Shown one piece after another: positions 260 through 35,467 of a stretch of DNA of 35,467 nucleotides (position 1 is its first letter; every line of letters starts with the position of its first letter). The stretch lies in IMG/VR virus record IMGVR_UViG_3300005600_000058, positions 1 through 35,467 of that record. The stretch is one strand, 5' to 3'. A model generated the notes under the pieces. That model saw only the letters and a list, made by a program, of their open reading frames with translations. It ran no database searches and had not been told where the DNA came from. Made by a program: the position numbers and the translations under genes. This DNA is from a virus.

Positions 260-520
260 ATGACCGAAATTGTCCGACTGACACCGGAACAGCGCGAGCG
301 CGTCATAATCGATGCCGCCGTCACCGCGTCCGAAACACACGGCCTATGTGGCTGGACGCGCCGCGTGCTGGCAGAGGCGTGCAGCGTCAACACGTCGCCG
401 CAATTGACAAAGCACTATTTTCCGAACCTGGAAGATCTGCGCAAGCGTGTGTTGCTGCATCCGAACTGCACGGATGACATGCGCGCACAGGCTCGCGCTA
501 TGGGTATTTCCTACCGCTAA
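260..520 (+). CDS. small TetR-type helix-turn-helix regulator, 86 aa
   Basis: The product resembles only the N-terminal DNA-binding domain of TetR-family regulators: a first helix around TPEQRERVIIDAAV, then RRVLAEACSV and a recognition-helix-like segment running into LTKHYFPNLEDLRKRVL, which matches the family pattern of an aromatic-rich segment followed by an acidic-start helix. Full TetR proteins are about 190-220 aa with a ligand-binding domain; here that part is absent, so the protein would bind DNA without a typical effector pocket. An AGAGGGG ribosome site (247-253) sits six bases before the ATG. It precedes the primase-helicase gene and is a candidate regulator of the phage early or late switch; this role is inferred. 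Confidence 0.65.
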   Translation: MTEIVRLTPEQRERVIIDAAVTASETHGLCGWTRRVLAEACSVNTSPQLTKHYFPNLEDLRKRVLLHPNCTDDMRAQARAMGISYR

Positions 521-622: not shown

Positions 623-3262
623 ATGGATTCCGCAGAATTTCTTGCGAACTGGTACGGCGGTGCGCCGTTCACCCTCACAACGATACCGGTGGACGGCGGC
701 GGACCGACCGGGCAGACGTTTACAGACCCCGCAGCGGCGGCACAGTGGGCCAGTCTGCAAAACGCAGCGCGTCGCAACGTCTATTTCCACGTCAACCCTG
801 GAGCCGACACCAATAACAGCGGTAAGCTGACGAAATCCGAACTGTCCGCCCTGATCGGCTGGCACGTCGATCTTGACCCGCCTGCGGGTATGGGTCCAGG
901 GCCCAACTATGACGCATGGCGCGCCGATGCGCTGGCAAGGGTGACGGCCTGCAATCCGTCGATCATCATTAACAGCGGGCGCGGATTGCAAGCTTACTGG
1001 AGATTGCGGGACGCCGCGGAAGCGACGCCGGAAAACATCGACCGCATCGAGCAGATGAACCGCGCAACCGTACGGCTGGTCGGCGGCGATAAAGCAGCCG
1101 TGGACGCCTCCCGGATCATGAAACTGCCCGGAACCATCGCCTATCCGAACCCGGATAAATCCGCCGCGGGCTGGCAGCCATCGACCGCGGCGGTGATCGG
1201 CGGCACGGGTGGTCGGTTTGATCCAAATCAATTTACAGCGTTCGAATCCTGGCTGCACGCAAGCGCCCCCGTTCCGCCCGTCATGCCGACGCCCGCTGCG
1301 ATCGATGACGGGCCGATCAGTCCCGAAGAATTCCGCGCGCTCTGTGATCGGGTGACGCGGAAACTGCGCGGCGGGCGCAACGCCATGCTGCTAGACCTCG
1401 GCATTCCGGACCGGTCCGGCGGCGATGCGTCTGACGTCTGGGGCTGGATGATGCGGGCGACAGCGGAAGTCACCAGCCGAAACGATGTGGCGCGCGAGGT
1501 GCTGCTGAACTTCGGGTTCGTTGACAAAACTTATCCGCCGTCTGGCAGCGAAACGCGGCGTCAGAAATGCGAACGGGAATTGCGCGAATACTGGCAGGCG
1601 CAGGTGACAGCAACCGCCGACCGGCGCGCGACCGGATCGCTCGAAGGTTTGAAGGAACTTGCTCAGCGCACCGATCCCGACGCAGTTGACGAACTCGCAA
1701 GTCACGCGGCGCGGCTGTCTGCGGCGGAACGTGACGCGCTGCTGACCGAAGTCAAACAGACGCGTCCCGATATTGCCAAGCCGTTGCAGGCAGCCATCGG
1801 TGCGGAAATCGACGCGTTCCGTGTCGCCCAGGGCGAACAGCAATTTGACGCGATACGGGGCGGCGAGCTCTCCCGCTGGTTTATTGTCGGCGACGACGGG
1901 ACCGGATCACCAGCGGCCATCAACCGCCACACGGGGCGGGCGGTAACGTTCGGAAATTTCCTGATCCGGTTCAAACATCTCCCGACAATTGCGGTTCCGG
2001 CCGGTGACAAAATCAAACTGGTCGAGGCTGCCGCGCACTGGTGGTCAGACCCCGAAACCGAACGATACGCAGAACTCGCTTTCGATCCCGACAAGCCCGT
2101 ACAGTGGCGGACCGATCACGGGGAAATGCTGCGCAACGCCTATCTGCCGGCGCATCGCGCATCGGCGCCGACCGGGCAGGACGTTTCGCCATATCTGCAC
2201 ATCCTCGCATCAAACTATCCAGATCCGGGCGATCAGGAGGTAATACTCGGCGCACTGGCGTTTGCGGTTCAGAACCCCGGAAAAATGCTGCTGTGGGCGC
2301 CCGTGCTTCAAGGGGCTCAAGGTTGCGGCAAGGGTCTGCTGATCAAACAACCACTGTCGCACTGCATCGGTGGGAACCTTGGCGTTGTCAGTCCGAAGGC
2401 GCTGGTGGCCGAATACAACGGCTATATGTACCGGAAAACAACGGTCGTGGTGGACGAAATCGGGGAACGTTCCAAGGCTGCCATGACGGACCTGATCGAG
2501 GAACTGAAAGAGCCCGTAGCGGAAAGCGTCGTACCGTACCGCCTCATGCGAACCGATCCGTTTAGCGGCCAGAATTTCACATGCTGGTTTTTCATGACGA
2601 ACCACATTGACAGCATGTTAGCAAACGACCCAAGCGAACGGCGCTGGGCGCAACTGGTTAGCGTCCTGCAAACGCCGGAAGCCATCGAGGCGGCATTCCC
2701 TGCCGATCTGTGGGACGGATACCCCACTGTGATCGAGGCGGCAGGCGGGCTTGGTCAGAACTGGTTCACCTATTACCGCACCTGGTGGAATATGGGCGGC
2801 AACGAGGCGGTGCGGGGGATGCTTGAGACGCGCGCTATGGCGACACCCGGTCGTGCGCCGATGACAACCACACGGGCGGACGCTGTGGCCGCCTCCGAGC
2901 CGGATCTGATCCGCATTGCGCGGGAATGCATCGCGGCAGGTGATCCGGGCTTTCGCGGCGGGTTCGTGTCCAGCAATGCGATCCGTACAGCGATGGAAGG
3001 CGAGGGGTTACGGGTGCCTGCGGGTCGGTGGATGGCCCAGCACATGCGCCGCCTCGGCTACTGTGACAGCGTGCGGTTCCGCCCCACACCGGCAGAGGAT
3101 ATGCGGTTCCCGGCGGCTAAGCAAGCACGGCTCTACTTCAACGACCCGACACTTGCCGAATGTGAAACGCAGCGGGTCGTTGAACTATACGACGCCGCCC
3201 AGGCCGAAGAACTTCAGCCGAAACGTTCGAATATTGTGCCGATGAAACCGCCGGGGACTTGA
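623..3262 (+). CDS. primase-helicase fusion (RepB/AEP-type primase plus phage P-loop helicase), 879 aa
   Basis: The N-terminal third looks like an archaeo-eukaryotic-type primase of the RepB/PrimPol group: HVDLD at 81-85 gives the DxD metal pair, SGRG at 118-121 follows, and DASRIMKLPGT (161-171) matches the third acidic residue and the RxxxLPGT signature. The C-terminal half is a P-loop helicase of the kind found in phage primase-helicases (DUF5906-like): Walker A GAQGCGKG at 564-571, Walker B VVVDE at 608-612, and a sensor-like FFMTNHIDS. It would open the duplex and lay primers (or polymerise) at the phage origin. AGGTGA at 611-616 fixes the ATG. The gene is followed by two terminators and the iteron region, so initiator and origin are neighbours. 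Whether it also polymerises cannot be told from sequence. Confidence 0.88.
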   Translation: MDSAEFLANWYGGAPFTLTTIPVDGGGPTGQTFTDPAAAAQWASLQNAARRNVYFHVNPGADTNNSGKLTKSELSALIGWHVDLDPPAGMGPGPNYDAWRADALARVTACNPSIIINSGRGLQAYWRLRDAAEATPENIDRIEQMNRATVRLVGGDKAAVDASRIMKLPGTIAYPNPDKSAAGWQPSTAAVIGGTGGRFDPNQFTAFESWLHASAPVPPVMPTPAAIDDGPISPEEFRALCDRVTRKLRGGRNAMLLDLGIPDRSGGDASDVWGWMMRATAEVTSRNDVAREVLLNFGFVDKTYPPSGSETRRQKCERELREYWQAQVTATADRRATGSLEGLKELAQRTDPDAVDELASHAARLSAAERDALLTEVKQTRPDIAKPLQAAIGAEIDAFRVAQGEQQFDAIRGGELSRWFIVGDDGTGSPAAINRHTGRAVTFGNFLIRFKHLPTIAVPAGDKIKLVEAAAHWWSDPETERYAELAFDPDKPVQWRTDHGEMLRNAYLPAHRASAPTGQDVSPYLHILASNYPDPGDQEVILGALAFAVQNPGKMLLWAPVLQGAQGCGKGLLIKQPLSHCIGGNLGVVSPKALVAEYNGYMYRKTTVVVDEIGERSKAAMTDLIEELKEPVAESVVPYRLMRTDPFSGQNFTCWFFMTNHIDSMLANDPSERRWAQLVSVLQTPEAIEAAFPADLWDGYPTVIEAAGGLGQNWFTYYRTWWNMGGNEAVRGMLETRAMATPGRAPMTTTRADAVAASEPDLIRIARECIAAGDPGFRGGFVSSNAIRTAMEGEGLRVPAGRWMAQHMRRLGYCDSVRFRPTPAEDMRFPAAKQARLYFNDPTLAECETQRVVELYDAAQAEELQPKRSNIVPMKPPGT

Positions 3263-3329
3263 CGCAGCGTCCTGCAACGCGTAGCGTGGAAAGCATCGGA
3301 ACCACCACTCACTTCCTCCTGTTGAAACT

Positions 3330-3356
3330 GACCCGCTTCGGCGGGTCTTTTTTTTT
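3330..3356 (+). terminator. rho-independent terminator after the primase-helicase gene
   Basis: A 7-bp GC-rich stem (GACCCGC / GCGGGTC) closed by a TTCG tetraloop is followed immediately by nine T residues. It lies about 70 bases after the stop of the primase-helicase gene and points rightward, closing the first rightward transcription unit. Confidence 0.93.
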
Positions 3357-3369
3357 GGCTGACTGTTAG

Positions 3370-3429
3370 CTTACACGGGTCGCACGGGACGCCCAAGAAC
3401 AGAAGCTGCGGGAAATGCTGGCTGAATAG
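3370..3429 (+). pseudogene. short coding-like remnant between the two terminators
   Basis: Between the two terminators one frame reads LTRVARDAQEQKLREMLAE and then TAG, a strongly helix-like, protein-like text. It begins right after a stop codon (3367-3369) and has no usable start upstream, so it looks like the tail of a deleted gene rather than an active one. Chance cannot be excluded for nineteen codons. Confidence 0.2.
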
Positions 3430-3453
3430 TGGCACATAAACGGCTAATAAACG

Positions 3454-3474
3454 GGGCGCTTCGGCGCCCTTTTT
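3454..3474 (+). terminator. second rho-independent terminator
   Basis: GGGCGC / GCGCCC with a TTCG loop (3454-3469) followed by five T residues. It stands about 100 bases after the first terminator and directly before the first iteron. The tandem pair would keep transcription of the early unit out of the putative origin. Confidence 0.85.
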
Positions 3475-3475
3475 G

Positions 3476-3655
3476 CTGTGCCGATAGACCGAAATTCTAT
3501 CGGCACAGGCGATTCTATCGGCACAGCAAAATTTTATCCGTGTGCCGATAGAACCGATTTGTGCCAGTAGTGTGCCGATAGAATATTTCTATCGGCACAG
3601 CACAAGTGGCTGTTTTTCATATGTTTCTATCCTTCTGTGCCGGCTGTGCCGATAG
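3476..3655. repeat. iteron array: seven of eight perfect 11-bp repeats in both orientations
   Basis: Direct copies TGTGCCGATAG start at 3477, 3541, 3571 and 3645; complementary copies CTATCGGCACA start at 3497, 3515 and 3589 (the eighth, at 3794, lies across the AT-rich gap). A degenerate copy TGTGCCAGTAG is at 3560-3570 and a half copy at 3636-3643. The pair at 3571-3599 forms a 13-bp perfect inverted repeat with a 3-base gap, and the pair at 3476-3508 a 12-bp inverted repeat with a 9-base gap. Mixed orientation differs from simple tandem plasmid iterons. Confidence 0.9.
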
Positions 3656-3814
3656 AATAGGGGGTATCCACTGTCAGAGAAAAATATACGAAAAGGTTAA
3701 TTTATAATTTCGTATTAGCCGATATTGTCTGATTTTATCCGATTTTATCCGTTATTATCTGGGCGTTTGTTTTTTGCCAGAGTGAAATAGAATCTATCGG
3801 CACAGCCGGCACAG
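3635..3814. repeat. 21-bp perfect inverted repeat flanking the AT-rich segment
   Basis: The left arm at 3635-3655 (CTGTGCCGG followed by CTGTGCCGATAG) is the exact reverse complement of the right arm at 3794-3814. The arms enclose 138 bases of AT-rich DNA. Each arm is one full iteron plus one shortened iteron, so the symmetry may place initiator molecules on both sides of the melting region. Confidence 0.92.
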
Positions 3815-3897
3815 ACCCCCCCGTGGCAGCCGTCTTGCGCGGGGTCGCATTTGCCCGTATATTGACCGCAACTGATAACAATCTGGACCCATGCGAA

Positions 3898-4416
3898 ATG
3901 ACACCGAAACAGGAACGTTTCGTCCAAGAATATTTGAAAGACCTGAACGCCACGCAGGCGGCTATTCGTGCGGGCTACAGTGAAAACACGGCTGGAAAAA
4001 TTGCCCACGAAAACTTGACGAAACCGGAAATCGCCGCAGCCGTCGCCAAGGCCCAGATGCAGCGGGCCGCACGGACCGAGGTGACACAGGACCGGGTGAT
4101 CCACGAACTGGCGAAAATTGCGTTCAGCGATCTACGGCAAGTGGCCGATTGGTCCGGTGGACGGATCAACACAAAAGACAGCGGGCAGATTCCGGATAAG
4201 GTCGCGGGTGCTATCTCTGAGGTGCGGAACACCAAGGAAGGGATTGTGGTCAAGATGCATGACAAGATCGCCGCGCTGGATCGCCTCGGCAAGCATCTGG
4301 GCATGTTTGTAGAGAAGGTGGACCACACGTCCAGCGACGGCAGCATGACGCCAGCAGCGCCCGACACGGTGACACCCGCAGCCGTGGCCGCCCTGGTCGA
4401 TAAGCTGACAGGCTGA
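3898..4416 (+). CDS. terS: terminase small subunit, 172 aa
   Basis: The N-terminus (MTPKQERFVQEYL, then NATQAAIRAGYS and a PEIAAAV segment) matches the Terminase_2 family DNA-binding domain that recognises the packaging site. The frame could be extended to a GTG at 3823, but the family start and the iteron repeats upstream favour ATG 3898; a second ATG at 3891 is out of frame. No good ribosome site is seen, which is odd for the first gene of the late operon. The C-terminal part is helical and ends in a low-complexity proline/alanine segment, the usual oligomer or large-subunit contact region. Its TGA overlaps the ATG of the large subunit. Confidence 0.87.
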   Translation: MTPKQERFVQEYLKDLNATQAAIRAGYSENTAGKIAHENLTKPEIAAAVAKAQMQRAARTEVTQDRVIHELAKIAFSDLRQVADWSGGRINTKDSGQIPDKVAGAISEVRNTKEGIVVKMHDKIAALDRLGKHLGMFVEKVDHTSSDGSMTPAAPDTVTPAAVAALVDKLTG

Positions 4417-5975
4417 TGGCCGTCCCCCCGATTGAATGGGACGGGCTGTCGGCGGTTGAGCGGCTGGCCATAGCGGCGGCTGGCGAACAGAACCCGCTAG
4501 CCTTCACTGCGGCATGGTTCAACATTACCCAGGGCGAAAGTTTTCAAGCGAACTGGCATCATCACTATTATGCATGGGCTGCTGAAAAGCTGCTGTCCGG
4601 TGCTGCAAAATGCGTTGTGATCAACGTGGCACCCGGTGCGACCAAGACAGAATTTTTCAGCATCCACTTACCAGTCTACGCAATGGTGAAATTTCCGAAA
4701 GTCCGCGTCCTGAACGGATCGTATTCGAAAGACCTCGTGGACGAAAACAGCGGACGCAGCCGGGAACTGGTCCGGTCTTCTGAGTTTCAGGAGATCTATG
4801 GATTTCAGATCGGCAAGGATAAGGTGGACAACTGGACGGTCCAGAAAGACGGCAAGCGGGCGCACCAGCTTTTCAGTCGGTCCAATGGCGGGCAGATTAC
4901 CGGGGCGCGGGGCGGATATATGGGTCCGGGCTTTTCCGGCTACGTCTCGGCCGATGATTGGGACAAGCCGGACGATATGTTCAGCGATCCGAAGCGCAAT
5001 CGCTCACACACGCGCCTTGTTAACACGCTGCGGTCGAGGCGGGCTCAATACGACACACCCTTCCTGTTTATCCAACAGCGCCTTCACACCGACGATAGCA
5101 GTGCGTTCATTTTGTCCGGCGGCATGGGGCTATCGGTCGATCTGCATATTGAGATACCGGCCTTGATCGATCAGGACTACATCGACAAGCTCCCGGATGC
5201 CGTCCGGGAGCGTTGCATTCGGGACGTTTGCGGGCATGACCCTGTTGACGGGTTGTGGAGCTACTGGCCCGCCAAGGAAAGCATTGCCGACCTGCTGGCG
5301 TTGCGCGAGGCGCACCCTTACACGTTTTTGAGCCAATACATGCAGGCGCCGAACAAGCTGGATGGCGGGATTTTCACCGAGGGCGGCTTTCTGTATTTTG
5401 GTGATGAAGATGGCGGCGCCGACCTACCGCTACCCCGCAAGTGGGAATATCGATTCATCACGGCAGACACCGCGCAGAAAACGAACACTTGGAACGATTG
5501 GACCGTGTTTGCGGAATGGGGCGTGTTTGAGGGCCGTATCTATCGCCTGAACTATCAGCGCGCCCGAATGGAAGCGCCCCAGCTACGGCGGGATTTTACG
5601 TCATTCGTGAACGCCTGTTGGGAGAAAAATAGCGGTTTAGCGGGCAACCTGCGGGCGGTGCTGGTCGAAGACAAGGTGAGTGGTACCGGTCTGATTCAGG
5701 AAGTGCAGGGCAAACTGCCGTTGCGGATAACGCCGGTCCCGCGCGAACGCGACAAGCTGACCCGCGCGCTGGACGCCCAGGGCCATCAGGCGGCGGGTAA
5801 GGTGGTGCTGCCGCTTGACGATCCGCAGAATTTCGAGTTCGTGGCAGAGGTGGCCAGTTTCACCGCCGACGACAGCCATAGATTCGACGACCAAACTGAT
5901 GTAATGATTGATGCGATTGATTATGCTATCATCAAGCCCGCAACCGCTGCTGATAAAACGAAGGTGACATGGTGA
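4416..5975 (+). CDS. terL: terminase large subunit, 519 aa
   Basis: This is the DNA-packaging motor: an N-terminal ATPase and a C-terminal RNase-H-like nuclease. The P-loop is deviant, APGATKTE at 72-79, with Thr before the Lys where most P-loops have Gly. Walker B is around SADDW (178-182), and the coupling region is QQRLHTDD (220-227), equivalent to the usual RW..DDL motif. Nuclease acidic residues are D351 with D361 nearby, E418/D419 and D495/D499 near the end. Length is normal for the family. The start overlaps the small subunit stop (TGATG), so the two are translationally coupled. Confidence 0.93.
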   Translation: MAVPPIEWDGLSAVERLAIAAAGEQNPLAFTAAWFNITQGESFQANWHHHYYAWAAEKLLSGAAKCVVINVAPGATKTEFFSIHLPVYAMVKFPKVRVLNGSYSKDLVDENSGRSRELVRSSEFQEIYGFQIGKDKVDNWTVQKDGKRAHQLFSRSNGGQITGARGGYMGPGFSGYVSADDWDKPDDMFSDPKRNRSHTRLVNTLRSRRAQYDTPFLFIQQRLHTDDSSAFILSGGMGLSVDLHIEIPALIDQDYIDKLPDAVRERCIRDVCGHDPVDGLWSYWPAKESIADLLALREAHPYTFLSQYMQAPNKLDGGIFTEGGFLYFGDEDGGADLPLPRKWEYRFITADTAQKTNTWNDWTVFAEWGVFEGRIYRLNYQRARMEAPQLRRDFTSFVNACWEKNSGLAGNLRAVLVEDKVSGTGLIQEVQGKLPLRITPVPRERDKLTRALDAQGHQAAGKVVLPLDDPQNFEFVAEVASFTADDSHRFDDQTDVMIDAIDYAIIKPATAADKTKVTW

Positions 5976-20520: not shown

Positions 20521-20934
20521 ATGCCGACAAAAGCCGAACTGCAGAAAAGGCTGACCGCAGCGCGGGCCGACATTGAACGCGGTCGCAACCTGCGTGCGGA
20601 TTTGGCCAGATCCCAAAAGGAACTGCATGCTGTTAAGCAGGAGCTTGCCGCGTGGAAAAATACCGCCGCACAGGAGGCCGGTCGCAAGCTGGCCGAGGCG
20701 ATGACGGAGAATTCCAAATTGCGCACCGCGGCGCAGGAGGTGGGTCGTGAGTTGACCGAGGCGCTGGCGGAGAACTCCGAATTGCGCTCGGCAGCACAGG
20801 AGGCCGGTCGTGAGTTGACCGAGGCGATGGCGGAGAACAAGATGCTGCGCAGCCAGTATCGGCCGACAAGCGAGCAGGTAAAATCGTGCCTTGCGGAAAT
20901 TGATCGCCTCAAAGCAATCATAGGGGGCGGCTAA
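20521..20934 (+). CDS. coiled-coil protein with 21-residue repeats, 137 aa
   Basis: Almost the whole protein is predicted helix with heptad spacing. Residues 49-111 are three near-identical 21-residue units of the form AAQEAGRxLxEAMxENSxLRx; twenty-one is exactly three heptads, so repeat number can change without breaking the coil. The end (SCLAEIDRLKAIIGGG) is also helical. It could form a trimeric stalk or spacer in the tail fibre network. GGGGTCAG lies just before the ATG. Confidence 0.7.
   Translation: MPTKAELQKRLTAARADIERGRNLRADLARSQKELHAVKQELAAWKNTAAQEAGRKLAEAMTENSKLRTAAQEVGRELTEALAENSELRSAAQEAGRELTEAMAENKMLRSQYRPTSEQVKSCLAEIDRLKAIIGGG
20665..20853 (+). repeat. three tandem 63-bp repeats within the coiled-coil gene
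   Basis: The three units start at 20665, 20728 and 20791. Units share long words such as GAGTTGACCGAGGCG and GCGGAGAAC, with scattered substitutions, indicating duplication followed by divergence or slippage. Confidence 0.85.
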
Positions 20935-30460: not shown

Positions 30461-30839
30461 CGCCGATCGTGGAAATTTTCGACGGATCGTGCCCGAACCG
30501 TTCGCACAGCCTGCGCAACTGATCGTGCGTCCCGGACCAGGCCAGATCCCGCGACCGCGTGTAGCCCCGACCGGACAGGTGGACATAGCCGTCCGGCGCA
30601 ATTGCATTGACCATAGCCAACCGCCGTCGTTTTGCAGCGGCGACTTTCGTCACGTCTGCTTTCTGCGGACTGCGCACTGGCGCACGCATCAGGCACTCCT
30701 GCGCCGTTATCGTCCCCGCGCCGCTCTTGTGCCTTGAAAACTTATCGATGCACGACCGGCACCACGCGTTCAGATTGTTGTTCATGACCGACCGGAAATC
30801 GGCGACCGGTTTGTCCTGCTTGCACCTAGCGCATTCCAT
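30444..30839 (-). CDS. zinc-ribbon protein of unknown role, 131 aa
   Basis: C3/C6 and C27/C30 (ECARCKQDK, WCRSCIDK) form a four-cysteine zinc ribbon like the N-terminal part of phage endonuclease VII-type proteins, but the HNH catalytic residues are not present. The middle is basic (KVAAAKRRRLA), the C-terminus ends in a GHDPSKIST stretch. It overlaps the polymerase stop by 14 bases. A DNA- or RNA-binding role is plausible but not shown. Confidence 0.66.
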   Translation of the reverse strand: MECARCKQDKPVADFRSVMNNNLNAWCRSCIDKFSRHKSGAGTITAQECLMRAPVRSPQKADVTKVAAAKRRRLAMVNAIAPDGYVHLSGRGYTRSRDLAWSGTHDQLRRLCERFGHDPSKISTIGVDTVI

Positions 30840-32793
30840 CGTAAAACCCCGCTTTCTCTACAAGTTCATTAGCTTTCTGGATGTAATAGTCCCGATCCAA
30901 CCGGGACCAGTCGAAATCGTGCAAGTCGTTGCACATCGCAACCGACACGCCTTTTTCAATCGCCTGCGGTCGCTCGTGGTGTGGCAGCTTTTTCAGCGGC
31001 GCCATGATCTTCCACAGTTGCGCACCGTCACGGGCCGCATAGAACCGCCCGACGCGCTGTTGCTGCGCGCCGCCGGTGTGTCGAGTTCGTGTCGGGTGTT
31101 TACCGGTCTTGGGATGCGCTGGCGACAGCGCGTCGATATAGTCTTCAAGCTGGCCGCCCAGCATAACCCGGTCGCTGCGCTGCACCTTCAAAGAGTGCAT
31201 GAATCGAAACGGATCGTCGCAGTCGTTCACGGTATCCGCGACCGGTACGCCGTTGATCATGAATTCCTCAGCGGCAATTGCGATGATCTTGCACGACTGG
31301 TTTTTGTGCCAGTTGCTGCCGGTGTCGAGTCCGTGCCGCCACTCATAGGCGCCCTTGCCCTTCACCTTGCCGCCCGGTTCAACTGCAAGGTAATTGTTCA
31401 CGTCCCGCTGATAAATCGCCTGCCAGTGGTCCACGTCGAGCGACAGGCGAGTGATACCCTCCCACCATTCCTTGACCGCCATCACGGCACCCATGTGGTC
31501 GTCATCGACCGCCAGCGTCACGCCGTCCGTGTTGACGTTGAAGACCTCGACAGTTGGGATTACGGCCAATTTTTCAGCCAACATGCACAGCATCAATTGG
31601 CCGTTGACGGTAATCCCCAGCATGAATGCGTTGTCGTGCATGCAGCTATATTTCGAACCACCTTTGCCGAACACAGCGTTCAGGCCCAGTTTTGATGCTG
31701 TTTGCTTCACGTCTTCGCCCGCGCGCTTGTACGCCATCCGGCGCTCATACAGCGCCGCATATTCATCGACGAAACCCTGCCCGAGGTGTTCCGGCGCCAG
31801 CCCGTTCTTGATCGCGATGTTCGGGTAATAGCTGGACACATCGACGGTGATCACCTGGCGGCCCGGACGCGCCCGATACGTGCGATTGTGGGTCGCGGCG
31901 TGAATCCCGCCAGTGCCGAACACAAATTCAAGACCATGGCACGTCGCGGCTAGACCCTCGAAGACACCCTTAGTTTCGGTGATCGGCGGCGTGGTTTGAA
32001 AGTGCCGGTGGATTTCCTGAAACTCTGGTGTGTCGAACTGGATGTAGGGGAGGAGGATTTGCGACAGATCAATCTGCGCGCGCGGCGTCGTCCGTTTCGG
32101 GCCGCGCGATTTCGTGCCGGTGATCCCCGGCGTGTGTTTTTCCAGCGCCTCGATAAACAGGCGCTCGCCCATATCAATGTCAGATTTGTTTTCCAGATCA
32201 ACACCGAGTTCCTGCCCAATATCCCACCGCATATCGTAGAGCTCTTTCGACCGCTTGTGAAATTCGGTTGTGGCGGCCACATCGTGCCGGTTGTACGCGA
32301 TCAGGTCGGGGATCTTTTCGACCGGCAACGGCGCGTCAAAGTCCAATTCGAATTCGACCACGCAGGGCATTTTGAGCGCAATTTCCAGTTGCTTGAGAGA
32401 CGTGCGCCGCGCTTGGTTGTCAAACCCGTGGATTTTCATCAGGTCACATTGGCGCACAAGCTGCCGATCTTCCCAGATCACATGCTTGAACCGGTCTGAG
32501 AAAGGCGCGTTCATGATCTGCTTCGATTTCATGAACGCATCGCCGGCGGTAAAAGACTGGTAGCCTAACAGGAAATTAATCACCGGCCAGTCATACGCCA
32601 TGTTGTTGTACCCGACCATCCGCACTTGCGGAAACTGCATCAGCGTCCGAATGAATGACAGAAATTGGACGGATTGGTTTTTGCGCTCGCTGACCTCAAA
32701 CAGCCATTCGGTGCCGCTTTCGACGTGGGCAATCACGCAAGTAAAAACGTTCGGCAAACATTCAATGTCGTAGGTGTAGAAAATGCGTCCCAT
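30826..32793 (-). CDS. family-B DNA polymerase with 3'-5' exonuclease, 655 aa
   Basis: Exonuclease motifs come first: DIE (9-11), YNNMAYD (62-68) and YNRHD (167-171). Polymerase motif A is DVSSYYPN (318-325), motif B is K363...K368 with NAVFGK (372-377), motif C is VNTDGVT (420-426), where the usual first Asp is Asn but the second, metal-binding Asp (D423) is kept. A KVKGKG segment (476-481) matches the KxKG region. Length is short for family B and no terminal-protein regions of protein-primed enzymes are evident, consistent with priming by the primase-helicase. GAGGGG sits four bases before the ATG. Confidence 0.87.
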   Translation of the reverse strand: MGRIFYTYDIECLPNVFTCVIAHVESGTEWLFEVSERKNQSVQFLSFIRTLMQFPQVRMVGYNNMAYDWPVINFLLGYQSFTAGDAFMKSKQIMNAPFSDRFKHVIWEDRQLVRQCDLMKIHGFDNQARRTSLKQLEIALKMPCVVEFELDFDAPLPVEKIPDLIAYNRHDVAATTEFHKRSKELYDMRWDIGQELGVDLENKSDIDMGERLFIEALEKHTPGITGTKSRGPKRTTPRAQIDLSQILLPYIQFDTPEFQEIHRHFQTTPPITETKGVFEGLAATCHGLEFVFGTGGIHAATHNRTYRARPGRQVITVDVSSYYPNIAIKNGLAPEHLGQGFVDEYAALYERRMAYKRAGEDVKQTASKLGLNAVFGKGGSKYSCMHDNAFMLGITVNGQLMLCMLAEKLAVIPTVEVFNVNTDGVTLAVDDDHMGAVMAVKEWWEGITRLSLDVDHWQAIYQRDVNNYLAVEPGGKVKGKGAYEWRHGLDTGSNWHKNQSCKIIAIAAEEFMINGVPVADTVNDCDDPFRFMHSLKVQRSDRVMLGGQLEDYIDALSPAHPKTGKHPTRTRHTGGAQQQRVGRFYAARDGAQLWKIMAPLKKLPHHERPQAIEKGVSVAMCNDLHDFDWSRLDRDYYIQKANELVEKAGFYDGMR

Positions 32794-32903: not shown

Positions 32904-33824
32904 TCAGCCTTGCGGGTTCATGTAACCGCCGTATTGCCCCGGCGGCTGATTACCAGGGGATCCAGTCTCCCCAGGCTGACCACTCGGCGCGGGCATTTGC
33001 GCGCCAGAGTTCATAGGGTCCGGCTGCTGCGTCTGCATGGGCTGCTGCGTCTGCATGGGCTGCTGCGTCTGCATGGGCTGCTGCGTCTGCATGGGCTGCT
33101 GCGTCTGCATGGGCTGCTGCGTCTGCATGGGCTGCTGCTGGCCCATGCCGCCCAGTGCGCCGGTCGGCGCGAGAGGTGTCTGTGACATACCGGCGGGGAC
33201 GTAACCGCCCGTGCCGCCCTGAAACTGCTGTTCAAGCGACGGGCCGCCGGTGATCGGTTCGCCGTGTCCGATCAGGCAGATTGTTTTCGGGTTCAGGTAG
33301 ACCCCGGCGGTGTGGTCGATATTCCCGTTCGCGCTGGCCGAATAGGAAATCTGCGCAAAACAGCCCTTGTACAGCTCATCCTCGCCGCAATCGACAGGTA
33401 CGTTCGCACCCGGCGGAAATTTGGCCGCGCGCATCGGGATAGTGGTCGAAAACTTGAAGATCCAGCAACCTTGGCCGTGCGGCGTGCGCGGCTCCTGTTG
33501 GCCGGTTTCAGGGTTGACGATCATTTCGTCGCCGTCCTGCACCTTCCAGGAAAATGCAGTCGCGCCAAGGCCTATTTGAATCTGCTGCATCACCTGCGGG
33601 TTCGACGCGTAACCGGCCATTGCCGCTTTTTGCAAAATGCCAAGCATCTCGTTCACGCCGGGGGCGGACTTTTCCACGGCCAGCCCGACAAAATATCGTT
33701 GCTTGTTCGGCTCAATCGGGCGGTTGTGCTGGTCGGTTGTCCCTTTCTGAAACAAACCTTCACGCGGGTGCATGATGATCCGGCCGACCGGGGTCGTACC
33801 GTATTCTGTTGGATAGTTAGCCAT
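32904..33824 (-). CDS. probable single-stranded DNA-binding protein with repeat tail, 306 aa
   Basis: The first ~200 residues resemble phage DUF2815/Enc34-like ssDNA-binding proteins: an OB-fold-like arrangement with RYFVGLAVEK, then a WKVQDGDE strand, GCWIFKFSTT and LYKGCFAQISYSASA, a string common to this group. The C-terminal third is disordered and has six tandem PMQTQQ units. Unlike classical SSBs it ends in GYMNPQG with no acidic tip. Neighbours are a nuclease and the DNA polymerase. AAAGG lies about ten bases before the ATG. Confidence 0.72.
   Translation of the reverse strand: MANYPTEYGTTPVGRIIMHPREGLFQKGTTDQHNRPIEPNKQRYFVGLAVEKSAPGVNEMLGILQKAAMAGYASNPQVMQQIQIGLGATAFSWKVQDGDEMIVNPETGQQEPRTPHGQGCWIFKFSTTIPMRAAKFPPGANVPVDCGEDELYKGCFAQISYSASANGNIDHTAGVYLNPKTICLIGHGEPITGGPSLEQQFQGGTGGYVPAGMSQTPLAPTGALGGMGQQQPMQTQQPMQTQQPMQTQQPMQTQQPMQTQQPMQTQQPDPMNSGAQMPAPSGQPGETGSPGNQPPGQYGGYMNPQG
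33022..33129 (-). repeat. six tandem 18-bp repeats in the SSB-like gene
   Basis: Six identical copies of GGCTGCTGCGTCTGCATG (forward strand) are followed by a partial unit. They encode the hexapeptide PMQTQQ. Identity between units indicates recent slippage, so copy number is expected to vary among relatives. Confidence 0.95.
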
Positions 33825-34919: not shown

Positions 34920-35467
34920 CAGCCTGCCGCCGCCATTGCGCGCTGCACCGCGTCCGGGTGTCCGGCGCCTGCATCAATCGCAGTCATGTACTGCCACAGC
35001 CGGTCGATGCTGGTGAGGTTCGTTTCGAGATCTGCGTGATTGATCGCGAGATCACGATACACCGCCTCAAAGTCTGCGATTTTCCCGGCGTTCATCATGC
35101 CGACAAAGCGGTTTGCCATTTCCTCATAGCCGACCGGCGCTTGCGGCGTTGTGGGTTCGGGTGCAGCGGGCTGCGGCGCAGGCATCGGCATGCTGCCCGT
35201 CGGGGCGGGTGCGGCGGACTGCTCCGGTTCAGTCGTCGGGACCATCGCAGCGCCGGACGCTTCGGTTTGCTCTGCCTTATGGGCGGCGATTGCGGCTTCG
35301 TATTCGTCCGACCGCCCTTTGCGTGCCCGCCAGGAACCATCGGCGTTTTTCGCTTTGGTCGATGCGTGAATTTCACCGTCCCACACCATACCGTGAATAT
35401 CCACCTCTGCCGGATCTGCGGCGGGTGCCGGATCTGCGGCGGGTGCCGGATCTGCGGCGGGTGCCGG
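34919..35467 (-). CDS. partial gene: C-terminal part of a DNA-metabolism protein with PAPAAD repeats
   Basis: The frame is open from the right window edge to the TGA at 34919. After hexapeptide repeats (PAPAAD), a motif AEVDIHGMVWDGEIHAST, then KNADGSWRARKGRSDEYE matches a short domain seen in several phage early proteins (WDxxIHxxxKxKNxDGxWRxRxG). A second proline-rich linker (around SMPMPAPQPAAPEPTTPQAP) leads to a C-terminal helical part. A GTG at 35404 could serve as an internal start but the upstream repeats are in frame, so the gene most likely begins outside the window. Function unknown. Confidence 0.68.
   Translation of the reverse strand, partial: PAPAADPAPAADPAPAADPAEVDIHGMVWDGEIHASTKAKNADGSWRARKGRSDEYEAAIAAHKAEQTEASGAAMVPTTEPEQSAAPAPTGSMPMPAPQPAAPEPTTPQAPVGYEEMANRFVGMMNAGKIADFEAVYRDLAINHADLETNLTSIDRLWQYMTAIDAGAGHPDAVQRAMAAAG
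35408..35467 (-). repeat. 18-bp tandem repeats at the right edge
   Basis: TGCCGGATCTGCGGCGGG occurs three times from 35408 and a fourth copy is cut by the edge. In the leftward frame each unit encodes the hexapeptide PAPAAD. The true number cannot be seen here. Confidence 0.93.

Follow-up and report, generated by a model that had tools for sequence, protein, structure and literature searches.

A mixed-orientation iteron array between the primase-helicase and terminase genes of a phage is a probable replication origin of the Pri-Rep type

We analysed a virus record of 35,467 bases (hereafter the window) and found that positions 3477-3815 carry an array of short repeats which, with a probability that we put at roughly 0.73, is a replication origin of the Pri-Rep type, recognised by the winged-helix-like domain at the C-terminus of the primase-helicase encoded next to it. 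Of the readings considered, that of a phage replication origin, put forward in the original prediction, is the best supported, by the relatives and by the fold and profile of the putative initiator; what did not stand is the accompanying claim of an unusual layout. The array is ordinary in principle and informative as a class.

A second contig (IMGVR_UViG_3300010392_000031; 32,874 bases), 100% identical to the window over the stretches compared, bridges both window ends across about 4.0 kb; the map is therefore permuted, with a short piece missing from the window. As read from translations, this missing piece of about 4.0 kb, in which no iteron word was found, encodes helicase-like, pentapeptide-like-repeat (3247-3831 of L009, a 14.6-kb stretch of the same phage) and methyltransferase-like proteins. 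The window end (35408-35467) lies inside an 18-bp tandem repeat of 3.3 copies, through which the second contig reads and which is the likely cause of the assembly break. Further tandem repeats were seen at 33022-33138 (perfect, 18 bp, 6.5 copies, within the coding sequence of a Gp2.5-like ssDNA-binding/annealing protein, 32904-33824 on the minus strand) and at 20662-20838 (63 bp, 2.8 copies, 83% matches). A family search also revealed a portal and a Mu F-like head gene. The features that frame the array are the following.

260..520, plus strand, small TetR-like protein upstream of the primase
623..3262, plus strand, primase-helicase (AEP-type primase, SF3 helicase DUF5906, C-terminal winged-helix-like domain), proposed initiator
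3330..3347, plus strand, intrinsic-terminator-like hairpin 1
3453..3470, plus strand, intrinsic-terminator-like hairpin 2
3898..4416, plus strand, terminase small subunit (TerS; Terminase_2, PF03592)
4416..5975, plus strand, terminase large subunit (TerL; PF17289; about 48% identical to T1 TerL)
30826-32793, DNA polymerase

Family matches and the hairpin search thus bear out the predicted position of the array, between the primase-helicase and terminase genes and behind two terminators; with the primase stop at 3262 and the first iteron at 3477, it sits just 3' of the primase-helicase gene. ATG 3898 is the likely TerS start, since the PF03592 match begins at residue 26 of the open reading frame from 3823. 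The protein encoded at 260-520, for which no Pfam match of its own was found, gave weak tblastn matches to a protein of OLIVR4 (E 6e-4) and to the product of the gene immediately preceding the primase gene in Agrobacterium phage 7-7-1 (E 6e-3), and the protein two genes upstream of the primase in Klebsiella phage MEW1 carries PF00440; it is possibly an accessory DNA-binding protein.

An exact word search recovered the 11-mer TGTGCCGATAG in eight copies, four per strand (3477+, 3497-, 3515-, 3541+, 3571+, 3589-, 3645+ and 3794-), just as predicted, and the partial copies that had also been noted are three shortened ones (3560+, 3636+ and 3813-). Taken as the 12-mer TGTGCCGATAGA, the word occurs at the same eight sites only in the whole record, even when up to 1 mismatch is allowed, in the order + - - + + - + - and with unequal spacing.

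3477..3488, plus strand, full iteron TGTGCCGATAGA (word search, as for the next four)
3496..3507, minus strand, full iteron
3514..3525, minus strand, full iteron
3541..3552, plus strand, full iteron
3560..3570, plus strand, degenerate iteron TGTGCCAGTAG
3571..3582, plus strand, full iteron, left half of a palindrome with 13-bp arms shared with 3588-3599
3588..3599, minus strand, full iteron (word search)
3634..3656, plus strand, left 23-bp arm: shortened iteron TGTGCCGGC from 3636, then full iteron 3645-3656
3657..3792, no strand, AT-rich core, proposed unwinding element (67% A+T vs 41% in the window)
3713..3759, plus strand, 4.7 tandem AT-rich decamers, consensus TATTATCCGA
3793..3815, minus strand, right 23-bp arm: full iteron 3793-3804, then shortened iteron to 3813

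In 1000 dinucleotide-preserving shuffles of the intergenic region (3263-3897; 635 bp), the most frequent 11-mer reached a count of 1 (746 shuffles) or 2 (254 shuffles), against 8 copies in the real sequence, which excludes a chance origin of the array. The long inverted repeat, first described as two 21-bp arms around 138 bases, is real, although the arms measure 23 bp (3634-3656 and 3793-3815) with 136 nt between them; in 300 shuffles, exact inverted repeats reached at most 18. A 29-nt palindrome (3571-3599) consists of two 13-bp arms around 3 nt. GATC is absent from the same 635 bp, while the whole window contains 267 such sites. The possibility of repressor operators scattered over the genome, which would have spoken against the original prediction, is ruled out, as the word is present at one locus only in the window and nowhere else in L009.

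The presence of AT-rich, repeat-containing DNA inside the arms was likewise upheld. The core is the least stable stretch of the window at 60, 100 and 130 bp (about 5 sd at 100 bp), and its tandem decamers resemble the AT-rich repeats of unwinding elements. The word ATTTTATCCG has exactly 3 copies in the window, all within the array (3531, 3732 and 3742).

The primase-helicase matches PF19263 (DUF5906; E 1.3e-10) and PHROG DNA primase families. A primase profile built from 59 primases, with the window sequence first, retrieved from the PDB (i) the chains named Primase 6k9a, 6a9w, 7rr3 and 7rr4 (E 2.7e-39 to 5.3e-39), which we take to be NrS-1 primase, (ii) the SaPI5 DNA primase 7ola (E 2.4e-37), and (iii) the NrS-1 CTR (6k9e and 6k9c; E 7e-21). 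The predicted full model, of mean pLDDT 64.7 and poor across much of the N-terminal half, aligned with the NrS-1 CTR 6lrb (Z 23.9; 333 aligned; rmsd 6.4) and with the SaPI5 primase-helicase 7ola (Z 17.9; 290 aligned; rmsd 4.2). Profile and predicted model thus show the protein to be kin of the SaPI5 and NrS-1 primase-helicases. When the C-terminal domain was modelled alone (mean pLDDT 80.8; about 92-94 at fragment residues 31-80 and about 72-77 in the wing), the predicted order of elements was helix-strand-helix-helix-strand-wing-strand, with a short helix within the wing, which is that of a winged helix. Many of its top-ranked PDB matches are winged-helix domains (MCM8 WH, HFH-1, Fur, ORC); since all PDB matches have Z < 5 (best Z 4.7; best Foldseek E 0.069), the winged-helix assignment rests on topology.

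Comparison with known systems disposes of the notion that a symmetric, mixed-orientation layout is unusual, because the P4 type 1 repeats occur in both orientations and the PICI iterons flank an AT-rich region. In the annotation of the P4 record, type 1 repeats of both orientations are present in crr and in ori, and crr directly follows the alpha gene with its terminator; our array detector, run on P4, found one cluster, in crr, and missed ori. The likeness to P4 thus lies in short repeats running both ways and in the place of crr, 3' of the primase-helicase gene and behind its terminator as here; the differences are that P4 has its repeats, 8 bp long, in two regions (crr and ori) and that its primase is of the Toprim type, compared with one region, a 12-bp word and an AEP-type primase, and that the window, unlike satellite P4, encodes a terminase, a portal and a head protein. 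According to PMC4234260, the winged-helix domain of the P4 initiator binds the repeats, after which the protein unwinds and primes. In PICIs, PMC6092414 describes an AT-rich region with a set of iterons on either side, directly after the 3' end of the replication gene, and a pri-ori unit tested for plasmid maintenance; for SaPI Rep and SCCmec Cch2, PMC7581432 has the C-terminal domain binding the origin or putative origin. The present phage resembles PICIs and SaPIs, as described there, in having iterons on both sides of AT-rich DNA 3' of an initiator gene whose product falls in one profile and fold family with theirs (SaPI5 7ola), and differs from them in its terminase, portal and polymerase genes and in that no integrase was found among the proteins searched. 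The array thus shows the features of the P4/PICI type, namely both orientations, a flanked AT-rich core, a position 3' of the initiator gene, and a Pri-Rep-kind primase with SF3 helicase.

Two further systems are close in protein and distant in DNA. NrS-1 PrimPol is the best structural match of the helicase half and is matched by the primase profile, but the recognition sequences that PMC8718748 describes for it are sites on the template at which priming occurs; PMC7102993 describes its Tail region as a new fold. The pRN1 ORF904 and the replication protein of Bordetella phage BIP-1 combine AEP, SF3 and winged helix, with a proposed origin just 3' of the gene; that origin, however, is in the same account (PMC4234260) a large stem-loop (about 100 bp in pRN1) and not a set of iterons.

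The array could work as follows. The primase-helicase would bind the asymmetric 12-bp words through its C-terminal winged helix, as monomers, so that both orientations and unequal spacing would be allowed. The inverted word pairs at both ends of the core would place helicase rings face to face, and these could melt the AT-rich core together with its decamers. Primers would then come from the N-terminal primase domain, and the phage DNA polymerase may extend them in both directions.

Relatives of the primase were collected by a search with an alignment of four primases, of which the best 80 loci of 182 were taken, this phage's own second contig included. Under a loose rule, 25 of these best 80 (own contig among them) have a mixed-orientation word cluster, some of these clusters being one-sided or in coding repeats, and the other 55 have none within the flanks examined. 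L086 has an array of 10 words ACGTCACA, L098 one of 6 words TGTCACAA, and arrays of a TACCCCG family occur in L088/L089, L091, L099, L107, L143, L160 and L161. In L091, L099 and L161 the array lies directly 5' of TerS and 1.4-3.4 kb from the primase; in L143 the gene next to it is ParB-like, not TerS. Several arrays share a further short word, about TAGAATCAA, towards their right side: it is seen in L091, L099, L205, L216 and L222, and in reversed form in L086 and L088. Klebsiella phage MEW1 (L234) carries two TACCCC-type arrays, at about 3646-3970 (before TerS) and 38075-38343 (before a neck gene), which in an alignment of 242 positions are 95% identical; among the 15 stretches of 100 bp richest in A+T, 13 are in the two array cores and the other two, including the richest, at the record start. 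The array stretch of phage JD001 was matched in 71 phage records, at 160 places in all. No report of a Jedunavirus replication origin, or of phage iterons serving as origin in the intergenic region at the terminase small subunit, was found in the open-licence literature.

Outside this primase family, L064, L047 and L035 show comparable layouts between other primase/helicase genes and the terminase, which suggests, as far as sequence can, that the array design extends beyond one primase family. These arrays or inverted repeats (L035 4846-4981, L047 4389-4677 and L064 3872-4129) have other words, and the primase/helicase genes next to them are of the DUF3987 or PriCT_2 kind. Scanning L011-L080 with 9-mers returned 9 loci besides the own copies, with the comparable layout in L035, L047 and L064, a mixed array in L056, and direct or scattered repeats in the rest. 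Among the distant-primase loci of named phages (L052-L056), 1 of 5 has a mixed array (Curvibacter PCA1; 5 words, 1.6 kb off). A terminase synteny scan (38 of 41 loci, up to 3 kb upstream of TerL, 10-mers) showed at least 4 copies of a word, among 37 loci from other phages, only in L035, where the word is AT-rich, and in L047, where it is poly-A. A scan with 14-mers for arrays of the TACCCC type gave at least 120 stretches, few of them array-like, and is unsuitable as an unbiased test. By primase search alone, IMG/VR gave only the second assembly of the same phage, and genome_contigs gave no relative (10 stretches fitting a pattern, 0 related).

We next asked which protein goes with the word. 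The wing motif GRV[NH] was tested on all 80 primase loci with longer flanks, the motif and threshold having been chosen after the first examples and the own contig being counted among the 28 loci without the motif. A TACCCC array is present in 21/52 loci with the motif and in 2/28 without (Fisher P = 0.0017), both of the latter being HPAL..GR[AT]NN variants. For loci with at least 5 kb of downstream DNA the figures are 13/28 and 0/20 (P = 0.0002), and 29 permuted control words reached at most 2/52 and 1/28. The association held after dereplication, by which alone these P values are corrected for kinship, at 90% (15/36 vs 1/24; P = 0.0011), 80% (11/30 vs 1/24; P = 0.0068) and 70% (9/24 vs 0/22; P = 0.0016) C-terminal identity. 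In the 21 motif loci with an array, its distance to the primase is about 1.0-5.2 kb; by the strict rule, 31 of the 52 have no TACCCC array, some with little downstream DNA and others with nearly 10 kb.

Usable primase open reading frames numbered 73, with 58 relatives in set A3 (14 left out to thin similar ones, and L100 for a stop in its translation) and 56 in set A4. Over the C-terminal 150 residues, the primases of 14 TACCCC-type phages (picked by eye; L173, L216 and L143 fail the strict cluster test) are 45-99% identical to one another; their identity to the primase of the window is 28-35%, to that of L086 31-45% and to that of L098 38-46%, so that the ranges touch (45% as the lowest within the group, 46% as the highest to L086 or L098). 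The TerS N-terminus behaves otherwise: identity is 16-100% within 13 TACCCC-type phages, and that of the window shares 63% with L216, of the TACCCC type, and 68% with L064, whose word is GTGGTGCA, both being phages whose words are unrelated to its own; for unrelated pairs these end-gap-free alignments are rough. The array word thus appears to follow the C-terminal wing of the primase and not TerS, an association that is strong but not independent proof, because the motif was picked once the first examples were known and descent is shared; as word and wing descend together, the actual binder could be the product of a different gene in that lineage.

These results bear on the alternative that the array is a regulatory region, from which a phage or host transcription factor (e.g. 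the TetR-like protein of 260-520) controls the late operon starting at terS. The array does lie behind two terminators and ahead of the first late gene, each MEW1 copy precedes a late gene, and annotated promoters lie under the homologous stretch in 2 of the 25 Klebsiella phage matches listed (H113 and H119); together with the arrays immediately 5' of TerS in the three relatives named above, the MEW1 positions keep a late-promoter role alive. Nevertheless, no sigma-70-like promoter was found in 3100-4100 (0.7 in shuffles), which leaves room for other promoter types; asymmetric words in both orientations with unequal spacing are unlike dimer operators; and the word, which follows the primase wing, has no copy in the window outside this locus. 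We regard this alternative as unlikely.

A slightly smaller chance is given to a pac site, at which TerS would bind the repeats and start headful packaging. TerS begins 83 bp downstream of the array, as it directly follows the arrays of L091, L099 and L161, TerL is T1-like, and the ends of the two contigs fall at separate places on a single permuted map, a pattern compatible with headful packaging. Yet sequence comparison pairs TerS N-termini 63-68% identical with unrelated words, and one word type with TerS identities down to 16%; the second MEW1 copy (about 240 bp) is away from TerS, L143 has its ParB-like gene in the place of TerS, and a pac site has no need of a melting core.

Equally improbable, and overlapping with the main reading, is an origin read by another protein of the lineage, or a joint site of replication and late transcription. 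Minus-strand genes of phrog_1081, whose function is not known, lie left of the arrays in L088, L091, L099, L107, L143 and, weakly, L161, and their product is possibly a second DNA-binding partner in the TACCCC phages; in 19.7 kb of the present phage (L162, array included), however, tblastn with four such proteins (E 1e-5) found no relative.

Other identities were rejected: attP, as the neighbours are a primase and a terminase and no integrase was found among 19 + 10 proteins searched; a DnaA-dependent origin, as 3263-3897 holds no full TTWTNCACA and one site with 1 mismatch; an origin of the iteron-plasmid kind, which has tandem direct repeats, in view of the word order, the unequal spacing and the lack of a full DnaA box; and a PICI as element, given the terminase, portal and Mu F-like head genes.

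Cumulative GC skew, proposed in the original prediction as a check on the start site, shows no turn at the array. Its minimum in L009, at 1050 (about 35135 of the window), is about 7.8 kb from the array and near a divergent gene junction, which speaks partly against an origin here; yet the skew follows gene direction, as both this minimum and the window maximum (25465) are near gene-direction switches, and it is therefore unusable as support. In MEW1 the minimum (9005) falls outside both arrays.

To our knowledge, the replication origins of many phages are not known. What is probably new here, judging from sequence, is that an origin of the PICI-like kind belongs to a phage encoding its own terminase and portal, and that its 12-bp word turned up nowhere else: among 50,697 phage records none matched the array DNA, and a search of IMG/VR for two closely spaced inverted copies of the word led back to this phage alone. 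Related arrays occur in cultured Klebsiella phages. We tentatively suggest, at somewhat less than even odds, that a large class of phages with PrimPol/DUF5906 initiators, lytic ones among them, shares with satellites (PICI, P4) a portable origin design, with inverted words on both sides of an AT-rich core, in which the word is set by the wing of the initiator's C-terminal winged helix, and that Klebsiella phages of the MEW1/JD001 kind carry two origins. If so, word and wing could be read from sequence to locate origins, and to predict and test cross-talk and separation between phages and their satellites.
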